This document shows, piece after piece, positions 51,291 through 59,624 of a stretch of 64,000 nt of DNA. Source of the stretch: an uncultured Alphaproteobacteria bacterium (lineage in GTDB: Bacteria; Pseudomonadota; Alphaproteobacteria; CADEGL01); contig CADEGL010000001.1 of the NCBI GenBank assembly GCA_902826885.1, positions 98,906 to 162,905 on the forward strand, given 5' to 3'. The stretch's first letter is position 1. Every line of letters begins with the position of its first letter. The notes under the pieces are model-generated. The model was given only the letters and a program-made list of their open reading frames with translations, was not told where the DNA came from and searched no databases. A program made the translations under genes and the position numbers.

Positions 51291-51300
51291 CCTCGAACCA

Positions 51301-51395
51301 CGTGAGGCTGGGGTGCCCAGGCCGCTTCCCGCGCGCCGAGGCTGAGAACAGACCCAGGAACCTGAACCAGGTAATGCTGGCGGAGGGAGCAACAC
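51301..51395 (+). promoter_or_regulatory. TPP riboswitch (THI element)
   Basis: The conserved THI-element blocks appear in order with correct spacing: GGGGTGCC (51310-51317), CTGAGA (51342-51347), ACCC (51352-51355), ACCTGA-CCAG-TAATGCTGGCG (51360-51382 region) and GGAGGGA near 51382-51388. A closing stem CGTG (51301-51304) / CACG (51392-51395) flanks it. These are the residues that bind thiamin pyrophosphate. The element lies in the leader of the ABC importer operon and would repress it when TPP is plentiful. Confidence 0.95.
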
Positions 51396-51443
51396 GGGTC
51401 GTGATGCGTTCGAATCCACTCACTCGGCGTTTCGTGATCCAGC

Positions 51444-51464
51444 CCTCCCCCGCCGCAAAGGAGG
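51444..51464 (+). promoter_or_regulatory. Hairpin able to hide the ribosome-binding site of the ABC operon
   Basis: CCTCC at 51444-51448 can pair with GGAGG at 51460-51464, which is the Shine-Dalgarno of the first operon gene; the loop is 11 bases. This suggests translational control by the riboswitch rather than a classical terminator. Confidence 0.5.
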
Positions 51465-51469
51465 AACGG

Positions 51470-52588
51470 ATGAATCGCATCCTGCGCACCGCCACCATCG
51501 CAATCGCCCTGCTGGCCGCAGCGCCTCTCGCCGCGTCGGCGGAGAATGTGCGGATGCCAGTGCTGGTCCCCATCACAGGCATCCTGGCGCTCGAAGGCAC
51601 CAGCCAGCGCAACGGCGCGGTCATGGCGCTGGATGAAAAGCCCGGCGGCGTCGAGGCCGGCTATGACGTGACCGACACCGCGGCCTCGCCCGAGACAGCG
51701 GTGAATGCGCTGGAACGCGCGCTGGCCCAGCCCAATGTGGTGGCCGTCGCAGCTTCCATCTTCGGCCCGCAGATGCTGGCCATGATGCCCATCGCCGCCG
51801 AGCGCAAGGTGCCGCTGGTGACCATCTCCGGCACGGCTAAAATCACCGAGATGGGCAACGCGTATGTCTTCCGCTTCTTCCCAACCGACGCCGTGGTGAA
51901 GGTCGCCCAGGCACGCTATGTCGTGGAGGAACTGAAGAAAACGCGCGTGGCGCTTGTCTACCAGACCACGGCCTATGGGCAGAGCGGTCAGGCCCACTTG
52001 ATGGATAATTTTAAACGCCTAGGCGCACAGATCGTGTTCGAGGAAGGGCTGGCGCCCGCCGTGAAGGACATGGCGCCCGTTCTCGCCAAACTGAAAGCCG
52101 CCAATCCCGATGTGATCGTGCTCCAGCTCCACTCCGGCCCGACCGCGCTGTTCGTGAAACAAGCGGCGGCTTCGGCAGCCAACCTGCCCATCGTGGCGGG
52201 CTCGGCCATGCATCAGCCCTCGACCGCGGCGCTGCTCGAACCGGCCGAGTTGAAAGGTGTGTGCGCCGAAAGCGGCTCGTCGCCCATTTCCGGCGGCTCT
52301 CCCGCGATGGAGAAGTTCACCGCCGCCTACCGCGCCAAGTTCAACGCCGAGCCGGACGCCTTCGCCGTTGCGCAGTATGACGGCACACGCATGGTGCTGG
52401 ACGCCATCGGCAAGGGCGCGCGCAGCGCCTCCAAAGTGCGTGACGCGCTGGCTACCGGCAGCTATGAGGGGCTGGCGATGACCTACAAATCGGACGGCAC
52501 CGGCAACATGGCCCACGACGCGGTGATCGTCTGCTACAACGGATCGAGCCGCGTGCCCACGATCGTCAAACGCTACGCCGCGCGCTGA
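51470..52588 (+). CDS. Liv-type ABC transporter substrate-binding protein
   Basis: A 372-residue periplasmic binding protein with a signal peptide (IAIALLAAAPLAASA) and the Peripla_BP_6/Leu-Ile-Val fold: RMPVLVPITGILALEGTSQR, IFGPQMLAMMPIAAERKVPL, VALVYQTTAYGQSG. The family normally binds branched-chain amino acids, amides or related small molecules, but the TPP riboswitch upstream points to thiamine or a thiamine precursor as ligand. The ATG at 51470 has a strong AAAGGAGG site; longer frames upstream run through rfbD and the riboswitch. First gene of a four-gene operon. Confidence 0.9.
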   Translation: MNRILRTATIAIALLAAAPLAASAENVRMPVLVPITGILALEGTSQRNGAVMALDEKPGGVEAGYDVTDTAASPETAVNALERALAQPNVVAVAASIFGPQMLAMMPIAAERKVPLVTISGTAKITEMGNAYVFRFFPTDAVVKVAQARYVVEELKKTRVALVYQTTAYGQSGQAHLMDNFKRLGAQIVFEEGLAPAVKDMAPVLAKLKAANPDVIVLQLHSGPTALFVKQAAASAANLPIVAGSAMHQPSTAALLEPAELKGVCAESGSSPISGGSPAMEKFTAAYRAKFNAEPDAFAVAQYDGTRMVLDAIGKGARSASKVRDALATGSYEGLAMTYKSDGTGNMAHDAVIVCYNGSSRVPTIVKRYAAR

Positions 52589-52594
52589 CCGCCA

Positions 52595-53476
52595 ATGGAC
52601 GCGCTGACGCTCGTCCAGCTTCTGCTTAACGCCGCGGCCTTGGGCGCGGCCTACGCGCTGGTCGCACTTGGCTTCGTCCTGGTCATCAACGCGACAGGCG
52701 CCGTGAACTTCGCTCACGGCGACCTCGTGATGTCGGGCGGCTTCCTGTCGGTGGCGCTGGCCGGCGCGCTGCCCGTGCCGGGCATCGTTCTTTTGCCTTT
52801 GGTCGCCGCGCTGATGGCAATTCTCGGCCTTGCATTGTCGGCCGCGGCCTATCTGCCCCTGCGAAGCCGGCCGCCGGTCGCGGTCTTCATCTCGACGATC
52901 GCCGTCGGTGTCATGCTGCAGAACAGCGCCAACGCGATCTTCGGTGCCGCGCCGCGCGGCGGCCCGCCGCTCGCGGGCGACGGCGCACTGTCGCTCGGCG
53001 GCCTTACGCTTGATCGACAGTCAGCCGCCATGATCGCAGCCGCAGTGGTTCTCTTAGCCGCCACGCAGATTCTTCTCACGCACACCCAGATCGGCAAGAG
53101 AATGCGCGCGACGGCGCAAGATCCCGAGATGGCGCGCGCGCTCGGCGTGCGCACGGGCCGCATGATCGCCCTCACCTTTGCCCTTGCCGCAGCTCTCGCG
53201 GGCGCCGCCGGGCTGCTGCTCGGCAACCGCTACTTCGTTACGCCTGCCGAAGGGGGCAGCCTGATGCTCAAGGCCTATATCGCCGTGGTCATCGGCGGCT
53301 GGGGCCGTATCGGCGGTGCGGTGATCGGCGCGCTTTTGATCGCGCTTTTTGAAAGCGTGGTCGCAGCCTTCCTGTCCCAGCCGATCGCCGAGGCAGTGCT
53401 TTATGCCGTGCTTCTGATCGTGCTGTTTGTCCGGCCGGGCGGCATCCTAGGCGAAGTGGAAGGGCGGCGCGCATGA
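52595..53476 (+). CDS. Liv-type ABC transporter permease (LivH-like)
   Basis: A 293-residue inner-membrane permease with about eight hydrophobic segments, starting MDALTLVQLLLNAAALGAAY. The cytoplasmic coupling region KRMRATAQDPEMARALGVRT is typical of LivH permeases. It starts 6 bases after the binding-protein gene and overlaps the next gene as ATGA. Under the TPP riboswitch it should form part of the same vitamin-related importer. Confidence 0.92.
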   Translation: MDALTLVQLLLNAAALGAAYALVALGFVLVINATGAVNFAHGDLVMSGGFLSVALAGALPVPGIVLLPLVAALMAILGLALSAAAYLPLRSRPPVAVFISTIAVGVMLQNSANAIFGAAPRGGPPLAGDGALSLGGLTLDRQSAAMIAAAVVLLAATQILLTHTQIGKRMRATAQDPEMARALGVRTGRMIALTFALAAALAGAAGLLLGNRYFVTPAEGGSLMLKAYIAVVIGGWGRIGGAVIGALLIALFESVVAAFLSQPIAEAVLYAVLLIVLFVRPGGILGEVEGRRA

Positions 53477-55221
53477 GCGTCACCTCCGCACCCTCTCAAC
53501 CCGCGTTTCGCGCCGCCCACGCGCCTTGGATTGCAGGCGCAGCGCTGCTCGCGCTCTACGCGGCGTTCATGGGCGACCTCTATGGGTTGCGGCTTCTGAC
53601 CCAGGCCGGCGTCTATGCCCTGCTCGTCATTGGCTATCAATTCGTCTTCGGTCACGCCGGCGCGTTCTCGCTCGCACAAGGTGCCTTCTTCGGCCTCGGC
53701 GCATACGTCACTGGCATCCTAGGCACGAAGTTCGGTTGGGGTTTTCTCGCCACCTTCCCCCTCTCGGTCCTCCTACCCGCCGCATTTGCCCTCCTGATCG
53801 CAGCGCCGGTGTTACGCCTCGAGACACATTACTTCGCTCTCGCCACGCTCGGCCTGGCCCAGGTCGCGCTGATCGGCGCCGTGAACTGGGAATCGCTGAC
53901 CGGCGGCGCCAACGGCCTCGTGGGCGTGCCGCGCGTGACGCTGTTCGGCGCGCGCCTCGTCACCGGCTGGCCGCTCCTCCTGTTCGTCTGGAGCTTGGTC
54001 GCGGTCGGCGGCCTCCTGGCCTGGCGTCTGACGCGCGGCATGAAGGGCCTGGCCTATCACACGTTGCGTGAGCGCCCGTTGGCCGCCGCGTCCGTTGGCC
54101 TGGACGGCGGCATGCTGCGAGCCACCGCCTTCGTGCTGAGCGCGGCCTATGGCGGCGCGGCGGGCGCGTTGCACGCGACCACCCTCGGCGTCCTTTCACC
54201 CGAGGTGTTCGATTTCTCGATCATGGTGGCCTGTCTGACCATGGCCGTGGTCGGCGGGCGCGGCCGCATCGCCGGCGCGATCCTAGGCGCGGTGCTGCTG
54301 GTCCATCTGCCGGAATGGCTGCGCGGGCTCGAGCAGTATTACCTGATCGCCTATGGCGCGGCGCTGCTGCTGGTCGTGATCCTGGCGCCGGACGGGCTGG
54401 CGGGCATAGTCGACCGCTTCTGGCGCCGCGGGCGCGGGCGCAGCGAGACCCTGCCCTTCATACCGGCTTCGACCCGCGGAGCGCACGTCGGCGGAGCAGC
54501 GCTTCACGTCGAAAATCTAGCCAAGAGCTTCGGCGGCGTCGCGGCGCTTGACGGCGTCAACTTGCGCGTGGCGCCGGGCGAGATCGTCGGGCTGATCGGT
54601 CCCAACGGCTCGGGCAAAAGCACCCTCGCCAACCTCATCACCGGACTTTATCGCCCCGACCGGGGACGCATCCGCCTCGACACCACGCCGATCGAGACGC
54701 TGCGCCCCCACGAGATCGCACGGCTAGGCGTCAGGCGCACGTTCCAGACCGCCGAACTGATCGCCGGCGCGAGCCTGATCGACAATATCGCGGTCGCCTA
54801 CGCCGCGACGGCGAACCCGTCCCTGCCCCATGCGCGAAGCCGCGCGCTCACCGTGCTGGCAGAGGCTGGCTTGACCAGCCGGGCCTGGGAAGAGGCAGCC
54901 GCGCAGCCGGCCGGTGTGCGCAGGCTGGCCGAGGTCGCGCGCGCCACAGTGCGCGGGCCGCGCCTTCTGGTGCTGGACGAGCCGAGCGCGGGTCTGACCG
55001 AGGACGAGCGTACGACACTGGTCCGTCTTCTGCGCAACCTCGCAAGCAAGGGCGCCGCCGTGCTGGTGATCGATCACAATGTGCCGTTCCTGTCCGGCCT
55101 GGCCAGGCGGCTCGTCTGCCTGGAGGCCGGGCGCGTGATCGCCGAAGGCACACCCGGCGCCGTACTGGCCGACGAAGCCGTGCGCCGCGCCTATCTCGGC
55201 ACGGCGGAGAAAAAGCCGTGA
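53473..55221 (+). CDS. Liv-type ABC permease-ATPase fusion (LivM-LivG)
   Basis: A 582-residue fusion. Residues about 1-315 are a LivM permease (YQFVFGHAGAFSLAQGAFFG, LRERPLAAASVGLDGGMLRA). Residues about 335-582 are a LivG ATPase with Walker A GLIGPNGSGKSTLANLITGL and Walker B RLLVLDEPSAGLTEDER. At the signature position it reads QPAGVRRLAEVARATVRG instead of a clear LSGGQ, though the C-loop may be simply divergent. Start ATG at 53473 overlaps the previous stop; its own stop overlaps the LivF gene as GTGA. Confidence 0.9.
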   Translation: MSVTSAPSQPAFRAAHAPWIAGAALLALYAAFMGDLYGLRLLTQAGVYALLVIGYQFVFGHAGAFSLAQGAFFGLGAYVTGILGTKFGWGFLATFPLSVLLPAAFALLIAAPVLRLETHYFALATLGLAQVALIGAVNWESLTGGANGLVGVPRVTLFGARLVTGWPLLLFVWSLVAVGGLLAWRLTRGMKGLAYHTLRERPLAAASVGLDGGMLRATAFVLSAAYGGAAGALHATTLGVLSPEVFDFSIMVACLTMAVVGGRGRIAGAILGAVLLVHLPEWLRGLEQYYLIAYGAALLLVVILAPDGLAGIVDRFWRRGRGRSETLPFIPASTRGAHVGGAALHVENLAKSFGGVAALDGVNLRVAPGEIVGLIGPNGSGKSTLANLITGLYRPDRGRIRLDTTPIETLRPHEIARLGVRRTFQTAELIAGASLIDNIAVAYAATANPSLPHARSRALTVLAEAGLTSRAWEEAAAQPAGVRRLAEVARATVRGPRLLVLDEPSAGLTEDERTTLVRLLRNLASKGAAVLVIDHNVPFLSGLARRLVCLEAGRVIAEGTPGAVLADEAVRRAYLGTAEKKP

Positions 55222-55925
55222 GCGTGCTGTTGGAACTACGCGGCGTCACCGTCGCCTATGGCGGTGTGCCCGTCGTCGAAGACGTGTCGCTAACACTCGC
55301 CTTCCGCGAGGTGACGGCCCTGCTGGGCGCCAACGGCGCGGGCAAGTCCACCCTGCTCAAAGCCATCATGGGCCTAACTCCACTCGCGCGTGGCGAAATT
55401 CTCCTCCACGGGAAAACACTGGCCGGTATGCCGCCGGAGGAGCGCGCCCGGCGCGGTATCGCCTATGTGCCGGAGGGCCGCCGGATTTTCGGCGGCATGA
55501 CCGTGCAAGAGAATCTCGAGGTGGGCGCCTGGTGCGACGTGGCAACCCGCCGGCGGCGCCTGGAGGAAACCTTCTTCCTGTTTCCGCAACTGGAAGAAAA
55601 ATCTTCCGCGCGCGCTTGGACCTTGTCGGGGGGCCAGCAGCAGATGCTGGCGATCGGCCGTGCGCTGATGCAGGCACCGGCTCTGCTACTGCTCGACGAA
55701 CCGTTTCTCGGCCTGGCGCCTGTGCTGATACGCGACGTCGCCCACCAGATTCGCGCGGCCGCGATCGGCGGCCCCGGCATCCTGGTCGCCGAGCAGGCGT
55801 TCGATGCGGCGGCGGCGCTGGCGCCGCGCGGTTACGCGATGCGGCTAGGACGCGTGACAACGCAGGGAACGTTGGCCGAGTTGCGCGATTCGGGGATGCT
55901 GGCCGAAAGTCTGCTGCCGCGCTGA
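55218..55925 (+). CDS. Liv-type ABC transporter ATPase (LivF-like)
   Basis: A 235-residue ATPase with Walker A LLGANGAGKSTLLKAIMGLT, the signature LSGGQQQMLAIGRALMQAP, Walker B LLLLDEPFLGLAP and the LivF-typical VPEGRRIFGGMTVQENLEVG. It starts at GTG 55218. It completes the importer: binding protein, LivH, LivM-LivG, LivF. It converges with the small secreted protein gene. The signature is canonical, unlike the LivG half of the preceding fusion. Confidence 0.93.
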   Translation: MSVLLELRGVTVAYGGVPVVEDVSLTLAFREVTALLGANGAGKSTLLKAIMGLTPLARGEILLHGKTLAGMPPEERARRGIAYVPEGRRIFGGMTVQENLEVGAWCDVATRRRRLEETFFLFPQLEEKSSARAWTLSGGQQQMLAIGRALMQAPALLLLDEPFLGLAPVLIRDVAHQIRAAAIGGPGILVAEQAFDAAAALAPRGYAMRLGRVTTQGTLAELRDSGMLAESLLPR

Positions 55926-56363: not shown

Positions 56364-57047
56364 ATGGCCGCAGGCACGGACAAGAAAGAAGCGGCGCGCA
56401 TCACCGCGCGCGCCTTGCTGGATATCAAGGCGGTCAACTTCCGTCCCGACGAGCCCTATATTTTCACTTCGGGCCGCGTCAGCCCCGTCTACATCGACTG
56501 CCGCAAAATCATCGCCTTCCCCAAGCAACGGACTGAGATTGTGACGCTGATGTCGGACCTGATCCGGCGCGACATCGGCGTGGACGGCATCGACGCCGTC
56601 GCGGGCGGCGAGACGGCGGGCATCCCCTACGGCGCGTGGATGGCCGACCGGCTGAACCTGCCCATGCTTTACGTCCGCAAGCAGCCCAAGGGCTTCGGCC
56701 GTATGGCGCAAATCGAGGGCGACATGCCGCCGGGCTGGACCGTGCCGCTGGTCGAGGACCTGGCCACCGATGGCGGCAGCAAGCATGTCTTCATCAAGGC
56801 GCTGCGCGACGCGGGCGCGGTGGTGAAGGACGTCGTCGTCGTGTTCCATTACGGCATCTTCCCGAAGAGCGTGGAAAGCCTGAAGGAGATCGGCGTGCGC
56901 CTGCACGGGCTCGCCACGTGGCACGACGTGTTGGCGGAAGCGCGGCGCGGCAACGACTTCCCCACCGCGAACCTGGACCAGATCGAGAAGTTCCTGGCCG
57001 ACCCCGACGGCTGGGCCGCCGCGAACGCGCACAAGGCAAAGAAATAG
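56364..57047 (+). CDS. pyrE: Orotate phosphoribosyltransferase
   Basis: A 227-residue enzyme joining orotate to PRPP in pyrimidine synthesis. It has FTSGRVSPVYIDCRKIIAFP, AVAGGETAGIPYGAWMADRL, MLYVRKQPKGFGR and the PRPP-binding WTVPLVEDLATDGGSKHVFI (acidic pair then TDGGSK). An AAGGAGGG site precedes the ATG. It is monocistronic or at the head of its own unit, followed by the cobalamin riboswitch region. Confidence 0.95.
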   Translation: MAAGTDKKEAARITARALLDIKAVNFRPDEPYIFTSGRVSPVYIDCRKIIAFPKQRTEIVTLMSDLIRRDIGVDGIDAVAGGETAGIPYGAWMADRLNLPMLYVRKQPKGFGRMAQIEGDMPPGWTVPLVEDLATDGGSKHVFIKALRDAGAVVKDVVVVFHYGIFPKSVESLKEIGVRLHGLATWHDVLAEARRGNDFPTANLDQIEKFLADPDGWAAANAHKAKK

Positions 57048-57078: not shown

Positions 57079-57107
57079 TTGACCAGCCCGGCGTGATCGG
57101 AAATTCT
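57079..57107 (+). promoter_or_regulatory. Candidate promoter before the cobalamin riboswitch
   Basis: TTGACC at 57079-57084 is followed after 17 bases by AATTCT at 57102-57107, which would start RNA near 57114 at the riboswitch edge. Not verified. Confidence 0.4.
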
Positions 57108-57111
57108 TCCT

Positions 57112-57297
57112 TCCGTGTTGGTTCCCCGACGTAAGGCCGGGGAGGAAAGAGGGAACACGGTCGGCCGCTTCCGCGGCCTAATCCGTGGCTGCCCCCGCAA
57201 CTGTCAGCGGCGAGCCTTGGTCCGCATGGCCACTGGGAAACCGGGAAGGCCGGACCGCCACAGGCACTGACCCGCGAGCCAGGAGACCTGCCAGCGC
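57112..57297 (+). promoter_or_regulatory. Cobalamin riboswitch
   Basis: The leader shows the cobalamin riboswitch blocks in order: TTGGTTCC, GGGAACACGGT near 57151-57161, AATCCGTGGCTGCCCCCGCA (57180-57199) with ACTGT, CCACTGGGAAACCGGGAAGG (57230-57249), and the B12 box GAGCCAGGAGACCTGCC at about 57276-57292. Pairings and spacing look intact. It should repress the downstream receptor and salvage genes when adenosylcobalamin is plentiful. Confidence 0.95.
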
Positions 57298-57554
57298 AGT
57301 CACCCAACCGATGGGCGGGGAGTCCATACGGAGCGGTTCTTTCGCAGCGGTGACGTTTGTTTCCGATGCGGGGGCCGTTGGGGGTGTTTCCTTCCACGTC
57401 ATTCCGGGACCTTGATCGACGAGCGGCCTTTCTCGCGGCCGCGATGACGATCGCACGCACGCCGCGCAAGCGGCCGCGCGTGACCCTACGTCCTTCGCCT
57501 CGGGTCAACCCCGCTTGGCGTCCTCCGCGGACGCCCGAGACGAAGGAGCACGTC
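57298..57554. other. Long leader between cobalamin riboswitch and receptor gene
   Basis: 257 bases between the B12 box and the receptor ATG. An open frame from 57357 runs in frame into the receptor but shows no family similarity, so I treat it as leader. The ribosome-binding site GAAGGAG is at 57542-57548. No clear terminator hairpin was identified, so the control mechanism is not resolved. Confidence 0.45.
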
Positions 57555-59624
57555 ATGCCTTGGAACTTCCACCTTAAGCGGTTGGGGCGAACCACCGCGC
57601 TGACCACGTTTGCCGCCGCCCTTTCCACCTCCGCCCTGGCCCAGCAGATCGCGCCGCAGCAGGAATTGCAGGAGGTCAACGTCACCGCGACGCGCCTGGG
57701 CACTGGCATCGCGGGCACCTCGACCACCGTCCTGACAGAAGAGGACATCAAGCGCTCACCCGACATGACCTTGCAGGACCTTCTGTCCCGCCAGGCCGGT
57801 ATCCAGGTGCAAAACCTATTCGGCGGCACGGACGGCGCGCGCGACACGATCGACATGCGCGGCTTCGGCGCCTCGGCCGTCTCCAACACGCTGGTCCTGA
57901 TCAACGGACGCCGCTTGAACGATGTGGACATGGCGGGTGTCGACTTCACCGCCATCCCAAAAGACAGCATCGAGCGTATCGAAATCGTGCGCGGCAACGC
58001 GGGCGTGGTCTTGTACGGCGATGGCGCGATGGGCGGCGTCATCAACATCATCACCAAGACCGGTGTCGCGGTGCCCAATGCCTACCGCGCCGACCTATCC
58101 TATGGTTCGTTCGACTACACCCAAGCCAACATCGCGGCGAACCAGTCGTTCGACAATCTGGCCCTCGCGCTCTACGGCACGCTGATCAACTCCAACGCCT
58201 ATCGCGAGAACAACCGGTTCCAGGAACGCAACATCCAGGGCGACGCGCGCTACCAACTCGAAGGCGGCGAGTTGTACCTCACGGTCTCGGCAGATACGCA
58301 ACGGCTGGGCCTGCCCGGCGGACGCCTGGTCACTCTGACCACCAGCGAGGTCGCCACCGATCCGACCGGCACATCGACGCCCTACGACTACGCCAACAAG
58401 CAAGGACTCAACCTCACCCTGGGCGGCACGCACAAGATTTCGGAAGGCGTGCAGGTGATTCTCGACGCCGGCGTCCGCAACAAGGACCAGCAATCAGGGA
58501 TCTTCAGCTCCTTTGGCCCCGCCTTCGATAGCTACAACAACACCACGCTGACGACCTCGTCCTTCACGCCGCGCCTGGATGCACAGCATCAGTTGCTGGA
58601 GATGCCGGGCAAACTTCTGACCGGCGTCGACACGTACGGCTCGCTTTACGATTCAGATCGCGCGCTCCATCAAGGCGACGCACCGATTCACCACTACGAC
58701 CTGACGCAGATCACCGTTGGTCCCTACTTCCAGGAGACGGTGACAGCCTTCGGCAATACCGATATCGCGCTGGGCGCGCGCACGGAGACGGCCTGGGTCT
58801 CCGCGTCCGACACCTACGACGCCAGCGCGCCAGGCGGCGCCTTCGGCGTGCAGGGCGTACCCTACAACAACACGCAGACGGATTGGGGCGCCCACCTGGG
58901 CGCCAGCCACAACTTGACCGACGTCTGGACCCTGTTCGGCCGCATGGGACGCAGCTTCCGCCTGCCCAACGTGGACGAGCGAGTCGGCTCGGTGCCGTTC
59001 GGAGTGCCGCCAAACTTCGCGCTGCAGACGCAAACCTCGCGCGACGTCGAAGGCGGCTTTCGTATCAACTGGCGCGGCCTCGAATGGCAGACCAGCGCCT
59101 ATGCGATGAGCCTCAACAACGAAATCTTCTTCAGCCCCGCCACCTTCACCAACACCAACCTGGACCCCACCCGCCGAGTCGGTGTCGAGAACGGCGTGAC
59201 GTACCACATCTCGGATCCAGTACTGCTGAAAGGCTCGTTGACTTATATCGACGCGACGTTCCGCAGCGGTGAGTTCGAGGGCAACGAGATTCCGCTGGTG
59301 TCGCGCTGGTCGGGCAATGCGGGCATCTCGTGGAACGTCTTCCAGAAGTACATCATGCTGGATGCCGACCTGCGCTATATCGGCAAGCGGCGCTTCGATA
59401 ACGACGCAGCCAACTTCCAGCCGATGATGCCCGCGGTCACGCTGGTCGATCTGAAGGTGAGCGGCCAAATCGACCGCTTCAATTGGGCGCTGACCGTCCA
59501 GAACTTGCTGAATAAAGAGAACTACTTCGACTATGGTATTGCCAGTACGGCGACCTACGGGACCTACAATGCCTATCCCATGCCGGGGCGTAACTTCACC
59601 GGCAAGATCGGAATCAAGTTCTAG
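57555..59624 (+). CDS. TonB-dependent corrinoid receptor (BtuB-like)
   Basis: A 689-residue outer-membrane receptor with signal peptide (TFAAALSTSALA), a TonB-box-like LQEVNVTATRL, a plug domain (DMTLQDLLSRQAGIQVQNLF, NTLVLINGRRLNDVDMAGVD, RIEIVRGNAGVVLYGDGAMG, GVINIITKTG) and a barrel ending GRNFTGKIGIKF with terminal Phe. The riboswitch upstream and CbiZ downstream indicate cobalamin or cobinamide uptake. The ATG at 57555 has a GAAGGAG site; an upstream in-frame opening is unlikely. Confidence 0.9.
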   Translation: MPWNFHLKRLGRTTALTTFAAALSTSALAQQIAPQQELQEVNVTATRLGTGIAGTSTTVLTEEDIKRSPDMTLQDLLSRQAGIQVQNLFGGTDGARDTIDMRGFGASAVSNTLVLINGRRLNDVDMAGVDFTAIPKDSIERIEIVRGNAGVVLYGDGAMGGVINIITKTGVAVPNAYRADLSYGSFDYTQANIAANQSFDNLALALYGTLINSNAYRENNRFQERNIQGDARYQLEGGELYLTVSADTQRLGLPGGRLVTLTTSEVATDPTGTSTPYDYANKQGLNLTLGGTHKISEGVQVILDAGVRNKDQQSGIFSSFGPAFDSYNNTTLTTSSFTPRLDAQHQLLEMPGKLLTGVDTYGSLYDSDRALHQGDAPIHHYDLTQITVGPYFQETVTAFGNTDIALGARTETAWVSASDTYDASAPGGAFGVQGVPYNNTQTDWGAHLGASHNLTDVWTLFGRMGRSFRLPNVDERVGSVPFGVPPNFALQTQTSRDVEGGFRINWRGLEWQTSAYAMSLNNEIFFSPATFTNTNLDPTRRVGVENGVTYHISDPVLLKGSLTYIDATFRSGEFEGNEIPLVSRWSGNAGISWNVFQKYIMLDADLRYIGKRRFDNDAANFQPMMPAVTLVDLKVSGQIDRFNWALTVQNLLNKENYFDYGIASTATYGTYNAYPMPGRNFTGKIGIKF

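Follow-up and report, generated by a model that had tools for sequence, protein, structure and literature searches.

A complete Liv-type ATP-binding cassette (ABC) importer lies behind a thiamine pyrophosphate (TPP) riboswitch in a stretch of 64,000 nucleotides (nt) from an uncultured alphaproteobacterium (contig CADEGL010000001.1, positions 98,906 to 162,905), called the window here. The system has four genes and five components (Table 1). We give a slightly better than even chance to the reading that this importer brings in the thiazole half of vitamin B1, i.e. hydroxyethylthiazole (HET) or its 2-carboxy form, each either free or phosphorylated. Thiazole is a likely cargo because the genome keeps the genes for the pyrimidine half of the vitamin, while no thiazole synthase was recognised in it.

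The aptamer matches the TPP riboswitch family (Rfam: RF00059) from model position 1 to 105 of 105 in a search with an E-value threshold. The E-value is 5.6e-9 for the 321 nt searched against all 4227 families and 1.6e-8 for this one family across the 3.87 Mb genome. An earlier note on this DNA had reported the blocks of the THI element in order before the importer genes, and the RF00059 alignment confirms that all conserved core blocks are present in order. The Rfam check named in that note came out in two parts: the match is significant and full-length, but its score of 49.5 bits falls short of the curated gathering score of 54.3 bits. At the curated threshold no TPP riboswitch was called in the window, the sole call being the cobalamin riboswitch further downstream. 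The alignment contains non-standard pairs in several helices, including P1, and an unusual insert ahead of the CTGAGA block. The closest named relative found (locus L004) comes from a Lake Pavin metagenome and carries the label Alphaproteobacteria; its binding protein is 93% identical to that of the window. The riboswitch matches of L004 coincide in contigs and coordinates with those of G001, a genome of the window's genus. Between the window and L004 the variable loop region differs, the core is the same and its blocks are intact in both.

We regard the TPP riboswitch observation as confirmed. A genuine riboswitch that has decayed in the window, with the importer under other regulation or with other cargo, would fit the score below the cut-off as well as the existence of two groups of relatives that have no riboswitch and a nearly identical pocket. 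Core blocks that are unbroken in both genomes despite the differing loop, and the five of 35 riboswitch-linked relatives which likewise score under the cut-off, make this very improbable.

Thermodynamic folding suggests that control of the operon is likely to act at the level of translation. The leader carries a strong Shine-Dalgarno sequence, AGGAGG, preceded by the C-rich stretch CCCTCCCCCGCC, which in the predicted folds can pair either with the aptamer 3' end GGCGGAGGG or with AGGAGG. The Shine-Dalgarno sequence is unpaired at 0.73 in the free fold versus 0.24 when the aptamer is made unavailable. At low TPP, the 3' end of the empty aptamer would pair with the C-rich stretch, leaving the Shine-Dalgarno sequence open for translation of the importer. 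At high TPP, ligand binding to the aptamer would release the C-rich stretch, which would then mask the Shine-Dalgarno sequence. The leaders of L004 and L050 fold in the same direction as that of the window; the L034 leader was not scored in this comparison. No terminator-like site was found in the leader, and the whole leader RNA is no more stable than its shuffles (z 0.04), which neither helps nor hurts the predicted mechanism.

The four genes are separated by a 6 nt gap or overlap by 4 nt. Together they hold the domain set of a Liv/HAAT importer, with one Peripla_BP_6, two BPD_transp_2 and two ABC_tran domains, and the fusion protein combines BPD_transp_2, ABC_tran and BCA_ABC_TP_C. Pfam thereby matched each of the parts that the earlier note had listed as a complete importer after the riboswitch, i.e. 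the binding protein, the LivH-like permease, the LivM-LivG fusion and the LivF-like ATPase. The equivalog cut-offs of NCBIfam are not reached, either for Liv (bits/cut-off: LivH 131.7/379, LivG 165.5/362, LivF 178.4/441, LivK-type 68.7/477) or for Urt (UrtB 125/250.3, UrtD 164/304.1, UrtE 211.1/285.8).

Table 1. The riboswitch, its leader and the importer genes, followed by neighbouring features of the window (positions are those of the window)
Feature	Position	Strand	Basis
TPP riboswitch aptamer (THI element)	51299..51405	+	RF00059 49.5 bits, full length; same place in 35/50 related loci
Predicted expression platform, C-rich CCCTCCCCCGCC	51406..51469	+	thermodynamic folding only
Periplasmic substrate-binding protein, Peripla_BP_6, 372 aa	51470..52588	+	PF13458 167.7 bits
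LivH-like permease, 293 aa	52595..53476	+	PF02653 (BPD_transp_2) 127.7 bits; under LivH and UrtB equivalog cut-offs
LivM-LivG fusion, permease and ATPase, 582 aa	53473..55221	+	PF02653 39-302, PF00005 359-505, PF12399 554-579
LivF-like ATPase, 235 aa	55218..55925	+	PF00005 (ABC_tran) 110.4 bits; under LivF and UrtE equivalog cut-offs
Frame between operon and pyrE, 114 aa	55930..56274	-	no family match (Pfam, NCBIfam)
Orotate phosphoribosyltransferase	56364..57047	+	326.7 bits, cut-off 245 (window protein only); no Pfam-A match
Cobalamin riboswitch	57102..57309	+	107.2 bits; in L004 too
TonB-dependent receptor	57429..59624		best models are B12 receptors, below their cut-off

A protein search gave 1779 relatives among 7997 scored candidates. 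Scanning one genome per species from 84,980 species with a 28-sequence alignment yielded 145 encoding stretches, of which the best 80 loci were kept. A frame of more than 500 amino acids resembling the LivM-LivG fusion is present in 66 of these; among the rest are truncated contigs and truncated retrieved stretches. Fifty of the 80 loci were covered by whole-genome RF00059 searches, which use stricter filters so that weak matches may be lost, and most of these 50 genomes are metagenome bins. In the remaining 30 loci, 23 of them Azospirillum, the riboswitch was judged by its core motif only.

An RF00059 match is positioned 0-246 nt before the binding-protein match and on the same strand in 35 of the 50 loci, so the link that the earlier note had proposed to look for in related genomes is present there. 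L069 is counted among the 35 by the position of its match on contig C21 of G044. Thirty of the 35 reach the gathering score, and L004, L045, L048, L070 and L082 miss it. Within the window's order, all five genomes covered (its own included) have one such binding-protein gene with an RF00059 match directly before it. The core motif was found upstream in 63 of 77 loci, compared to three occurrences in 1.8 Mb elsewhere of the same loci; L044, L059 and L065, with less than 400 nt upstream, were excluded from this count. This enrichment together with the 35 linked loci indicates that the link is more than chance. On a tree of 81 binding proteins, which was a quick build with several long branches and no bootstraps, two changes are needed to explain presence and absence of the link, and the riboswitch is missing from two groups, one around Stella and another in which most records are betaproteobacterial. 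The link is conserved over several alphaproteobacterial groups and is old. Two of the loci, L055 and L034, come from metagenome bins whose record titles, Klebsiella pneumoniae and Rhizobium, look wrong; in the tree the L055 binding protein groups with a betaproteobacterial record and that of L034 with the window's relatives.

The AlphaFold2 model of the binding protein has a mean pLDDT (predicted local distance difference test score) of 93.3. Its nearest solved folds are proteins of the LivK/LivJ type and aromatic-acid binders of Rhodopseudomonas, and it is 20 and 22% identical to E. coli LivK and LivJ. The earlier note had suggested comparing the pocket with characterised Peripla_BP_6 proteins. 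In this comparison Glu226 of LivJ/LivK, which we take to be the acidic residue holding the alpha-amino group of the ligand, aligns with Ser245. Furthermore, Ser79 is replaced by Gly99, Trp/Tyr18 by Glu42 and Tyr202 by His221, while the threonine Thr102 is kept as Thr122. We counted 78 pocket rows, in which the link was called by motif or Rfam and from which the three loci with short upstream sequence were excluded. Glu42, Gly99, Ser120, Thr122, His221 and Ser245 are invariant in all 64 linked and all 14 unlinked rows, which points to strong constraint on the pocket, and His248 is found in 64 of 64 linked and 11 of 14 unlinked rows. The importers of the unlinked relatives probably have the same cargo or one like it. 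The acidic residue of the LivJ/LivK amino-acid binders is thus replaced by serine in all 78 rows.

In the best PDB matches, 3td9 and 4gnr, the place of Glu226 is taken by Asp. A relative from Anabaena (PDB: 4obb) has Asn there and binds a keto acid. In entries named as its N280D mutant this residue is Asp, and the title of one of them gives a complexed compound by a name legible only up to 'v'. These entries are in line with an acid at this place reading the amino group. The pocket is thus without the amino-acid signature of LivJ/LivK, though a single residue is no proof.

Branched-chain amino acids, or metabolites whose synthesis needs TPP enzymes, could also be the cargo, in which case low TPP would call for a by-pass and not for vitamin uptake. 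Acetolactate synthase requires TPP, and fold and family are those of the Leu/Ile/Val-binding proteins. However, the residue for the amino group, Asp in 3td9 and 4gnr, is serine in every linked row, Gly99 and Glu42 stand in place of Ser79 and Trp/Tyr18, and all four proteins of the operon score far under the Liv and Urt cut-offs. We find such a by-pass improbable. The conserved riboswitch link and the replacement of Glu226 by an invariant serine instead support what the earlier note had proposed, an importer for thiamine or a precursor built on the Liv scaffold. That note left the cargo open between thiamine, its precursors and related vitamins, and the gaps in the biosynthetic pathway narrow it to, most likely, the thiazole half.

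The window genome (3.87 Mb, 134 contigs, 96.9% complete) encodes ThiC (1069.6 bits, cut-off 650), ThiE (187.3 bits, cut-off 145.1) and ThiL (303.1 bits, cut-off 184.15). ThiG, ThiM, TenA and thiamine pyrophosphokinase were not found in it, nor was a full-length Thi4, of which there is only a piece of 49 positions. The same genes are present and missing in G001, which is 100% complete. With ThiC and ThiE kept and no ThiG, thiazole would be needed and not pyrimidine. Regarding thiazole salvage, the window genome combines a gap for ThiG and full-length Thi4 with the coupling enzyme ThiE. Across the 50 genomes we found ThiC in 19, ThiG in 15, TenA in 38 and ThiE/TenI in 47; ThiL is above its cut-off in 44, with weaker matches in four more, and thiamine pyrophosphokinase was found in none. 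Thi4 was considered as an alternative thiazole synthase. Matches occur in 26 of the 50 genomes and mostly cover about 40-64 of 235 positions, the longest covering 91 and 125, and nearly all lie inside frames of more than 400 amino acids. We read them as nucleotide-binding ends of unrelated proteins and reject this alternative.

To compare link and pathway we used a table of 49 genomes, from which L044 is excluded, though it is counted among the 15 of 50 loci without an RF00059 match. Among the 35 linked genomes, 23 are without both ThiC and ThiG, six have ThiC only, six have both and none has ThiG only, so that ThiG is missing in 29. The 14 unlinked genomes divide into four without both, two with ThiC only, three with ThiG only and five with both. 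The same gaps are found in isolates: Nisaea (G046, G047) has ThiC without ThiG and Thalassobaculum (G028) has neither.

The chief and serious rival is that the importer carries intact thiamine (or its mono- or pyrophosphate) and serves cells that are unable to finish the vitamin, which we judge to be rather unlikely. Such uptake would cure at once all 23 linked genomes without ThiC and ThiG, and the invariant Glu42 and the aromatic residues of the pocket would suit a cation. APH-family proteins, among which we place the thiamine kinase ThiK, occur in all 50 genomes, though this family is too broad to count; it was tried as a proxy for thiamine kinase and is uninformative. On the other hand, the ThiE-type proteins of 47 genomes and the ThiC of the window's genus would be idle, none of the 50 genomes has a recognised thiamine pyrophosphokinase, and ThiXYZ-like importers are retained alongside. 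Retention of ThiC and ThiE is hard to explain without thiazole from outside, and would bring little gain if whole thiamine were imported.

Further evidence comes from the other TPP riboswitches in the same genomes. In the window genome the only other one leads thiC. In 29 genomes we examined what lies behind further TPP riboswitches, 31 stretches altogether, and 24 of these encode a protein of one ThiY-like cluster, mostly accompanied by an ATPase and a permease; one set checked by Pfam has NMT1 (245.8 bits), BPD_transp_1 and ABC_tran. Twenty of the 23 linked genomes without ThiC were examined, and in 16 of these a TPP riboswitch leads a ThiY-like importer. Among the remaining four, G024 has a TPP riboswitch leading ThiBPQ (ThiB 419.2 bits, cut-off 317.15) beside its linked Liv-type importer, which also speaks against thiamine as the cargo, and in G003 the stretch ends with the contig. 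For G028 and G037 only the riboswitch directly before thiM was read; in G028 thiE then follows. Pyrimidine, and in G024 thiamine too, would thus already have a route under TPP control, which leaves thiazole for the Liv-type importer.

The same observation bears on the pyrimidine half (hydroxymethylpyrimidine (HMP) or its amino and formyl forms) as cargo. TenA in 38 of the 50 genomes would agree with it, and pyrimidine auxotrophy is called the commonest B1 auxotrophy in plankton in the accessible part of PMC11452348. The 16 ThiY-like importers, the window's genus with ThiC, without a TenA that we could find and without a recognised source of thiazole, and the lack of any linked genome with ThiG and no ThiC make this alternative a poor candidate.

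In the case of thiazole, the molecule would pass from the binding protein into a channel formed by LivH and LivM, with LivG and LivF as the driving ATPases. Within the cell it would be phosphorylated by a kinase, which in two relatives would be ThiM. ThiE would then couple the phosphorylated thiazole to pyrimidine from ThiC, and the last step to TPP would fall to ThiL.

Several points weigh against thiazole as the cargo, besides the score of the window aptamer below the gathering score. ThiM was found in only two of the 50 genomes (G028, G037) and not in the window genome, where thiazole salvage would need it. With no thiazole kinase recognised in 48 genomes, the step after uptake lacks an explanation unless thiazole enters already phosphorylated or a different kinase acts on it. 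In the part of PMC5899164 that is accessible, the use of carboxythiazole by the alga Ostreococcus requires ThiM. A pocket with an invariant Glu would also be a good match for intact thiamine, which is positively charged, and a thiazole synthase that escaped recognition would remove the gap. ThiG is also missing in six of the 14 unlinked genomes, and the six Azospirillaceae genomes with both ThiC and ThiG, all Azospirillum or Skermanella, are linked despite having ThiG. Correlated evolution of the link and the loss of ThiG was considered and gave one to two usable tree pairs (sign test p = 1), the few independent contrasts being due to shared ancestry. ThiY is listed as a transporter of pyrimidine and possibly of B1 in the accessible part of PMC10881298, and two other ThiY-like proteins are under the cut-off of the SsuA family and have no Thi label. 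The aromatic-acid binder 4ey3 also has Asp at the place of Glu226, so an acidic residue there is no sure mark of amino acids. Finally, three Azospirillum leaders (L005, L006, L012) showed no folding change and did not reproduce the masking switch.

Neighbouring genes were considered as a clue to the cargo and are mixed and not decisive. In the relatives without the riboswitch, the neighbours are Fe-alcohol and aldehyde dehydrogenases, AurF-like, TctC, UbiD and PstS-like proteins, or a sulfite-reductase-like cluster. The PyrE cluster, to which the orotate phosphoribosyltransferase of the window belongs, follows the operon in 17 loci, the window included, and in L067 it overlaps the last ATPase gene; this looks like plain synteny. 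The TonB-dependent receptor of the window comes after the strong cobalamin riboswitch, and a 114-aa frame lies on the opposite strand between the operon and pyrE (Table 1).

Other observations concern further genes near TPP riboswitches. In L117 (G014) and L122 (G018), TPP riboswitches of 75.8 and 57.7 bits stand directly before a phnS2-type binding protein (464.6 and 447.4 bits, cut-off 392.75), a type named for 2-aminoethylphosphonate. This would mean that the label does not apply to these proteins or that uptake of phosphonate is linked to TPP. A thiL gene lies just upstream of the riboswitch in G018. On contig C41 of the window genome (L003, 7472-9778), genes for a phnS2-type binding protein and a 2-aminoethylphosphonate transaminase are located within a few kb of thiC and the TPP riboswitch that leads it. 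A TPP riboswitch in L098 (G035:C22) leads a same-strand run of genes resembling LuxE and LuxC, followed by a ThiXYZ-like importer.

We tentatively propose, at somewhat less than even chances, that this is a widespread and so far unrecognised high-affinity importer of thiazole, possibly carboxythiazole, in which a Liv-type system was refitted with an invariant Glu/Ser/His pocket. If true, many alphaproteobacteria would have, together with ThiXYZ, one importer under TPP riboswitch control for each half of the vitamin, and the survival of lineages without ThiG would be explained. Moreover, a set of binding proteins now called branched-chain amino acid transport proteins would carry the wrong label, and for many uncultured alphaproteobacteria it would be easier to predict B1 requirements from sequence. 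The importer also offers a clear test of cargo change in an amino-acid-binding fold.

The B1 literature, in its accessible parts, treats thiazole and carboxythiazole as exchanged nutrients and names no bacterial high-affinity importer for thiazole; low-affinity transport or diffusion is presumed for the entry of HET into E. coli (PMC5899164, in part). The accessible part of a recent B1 survey names ThiB, ThiT, ThiY, ThiV, CytX, YkoF, Omr1 and ThiPerm and not a Liv-type importer (PMC10881298). Within the partly accessible open-licence literature we recognised no report of a Liv-type importer led by a TPP riboswitch, the regulon lists of PMC3766115 lying outside this scope, and found no ABC importer for the thiazole half. 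The Liv/HAAT scaffold and TPP control of vitamin importers are thus known, while their combination and an ABC importer for thiazole would, judging from this literature, be new.

Compared to known systems, the importer resembles E. coli LivJ/LivK-HMGF of the Liv/HAAT family (presumably TC 3.A.1.4) in the fold of its binding protein, its two BPD_transp_2 permeases, its two ATPases and the order H-M-G-F. It differs in the low sequence identity of its binding protein, the replaced residue for the amino group, the fusion of LivM and LivG and the TPP riboswitch in front. With ThiBPQ, ThiXYZ and YkoEDC it shares TPP riboswitch control and presumed vitamin salvage, but those systems use other binding-protein families. 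Operons of the ThiXYZ-like and ThiBPQ kinds are found beside it in genomes of this study; the ThiY-like binding protein belongs to NMT1 and the permease, in the one set checked by Pfam, to BPD_transp_1. The urea importer UrtABCDE is an example of the same scaffold with a cargo that is not an amino acid; among the NCBIfam models UrtE scores highest for the final ATPase (211.1 bits), yet every Urt cut-off is missed. The same task, TPP-controlled uptake of thiazole, is predicted for ThiW of Firmicutes. ThiW belongs to another phylum and is a single membrane protein, not an ABC importer that depends on a binding protein. In the accessible part of PMC6478431, thiW is described with tandem riboswitches for TPP and HMP pyrophosphate (HMP-PP).

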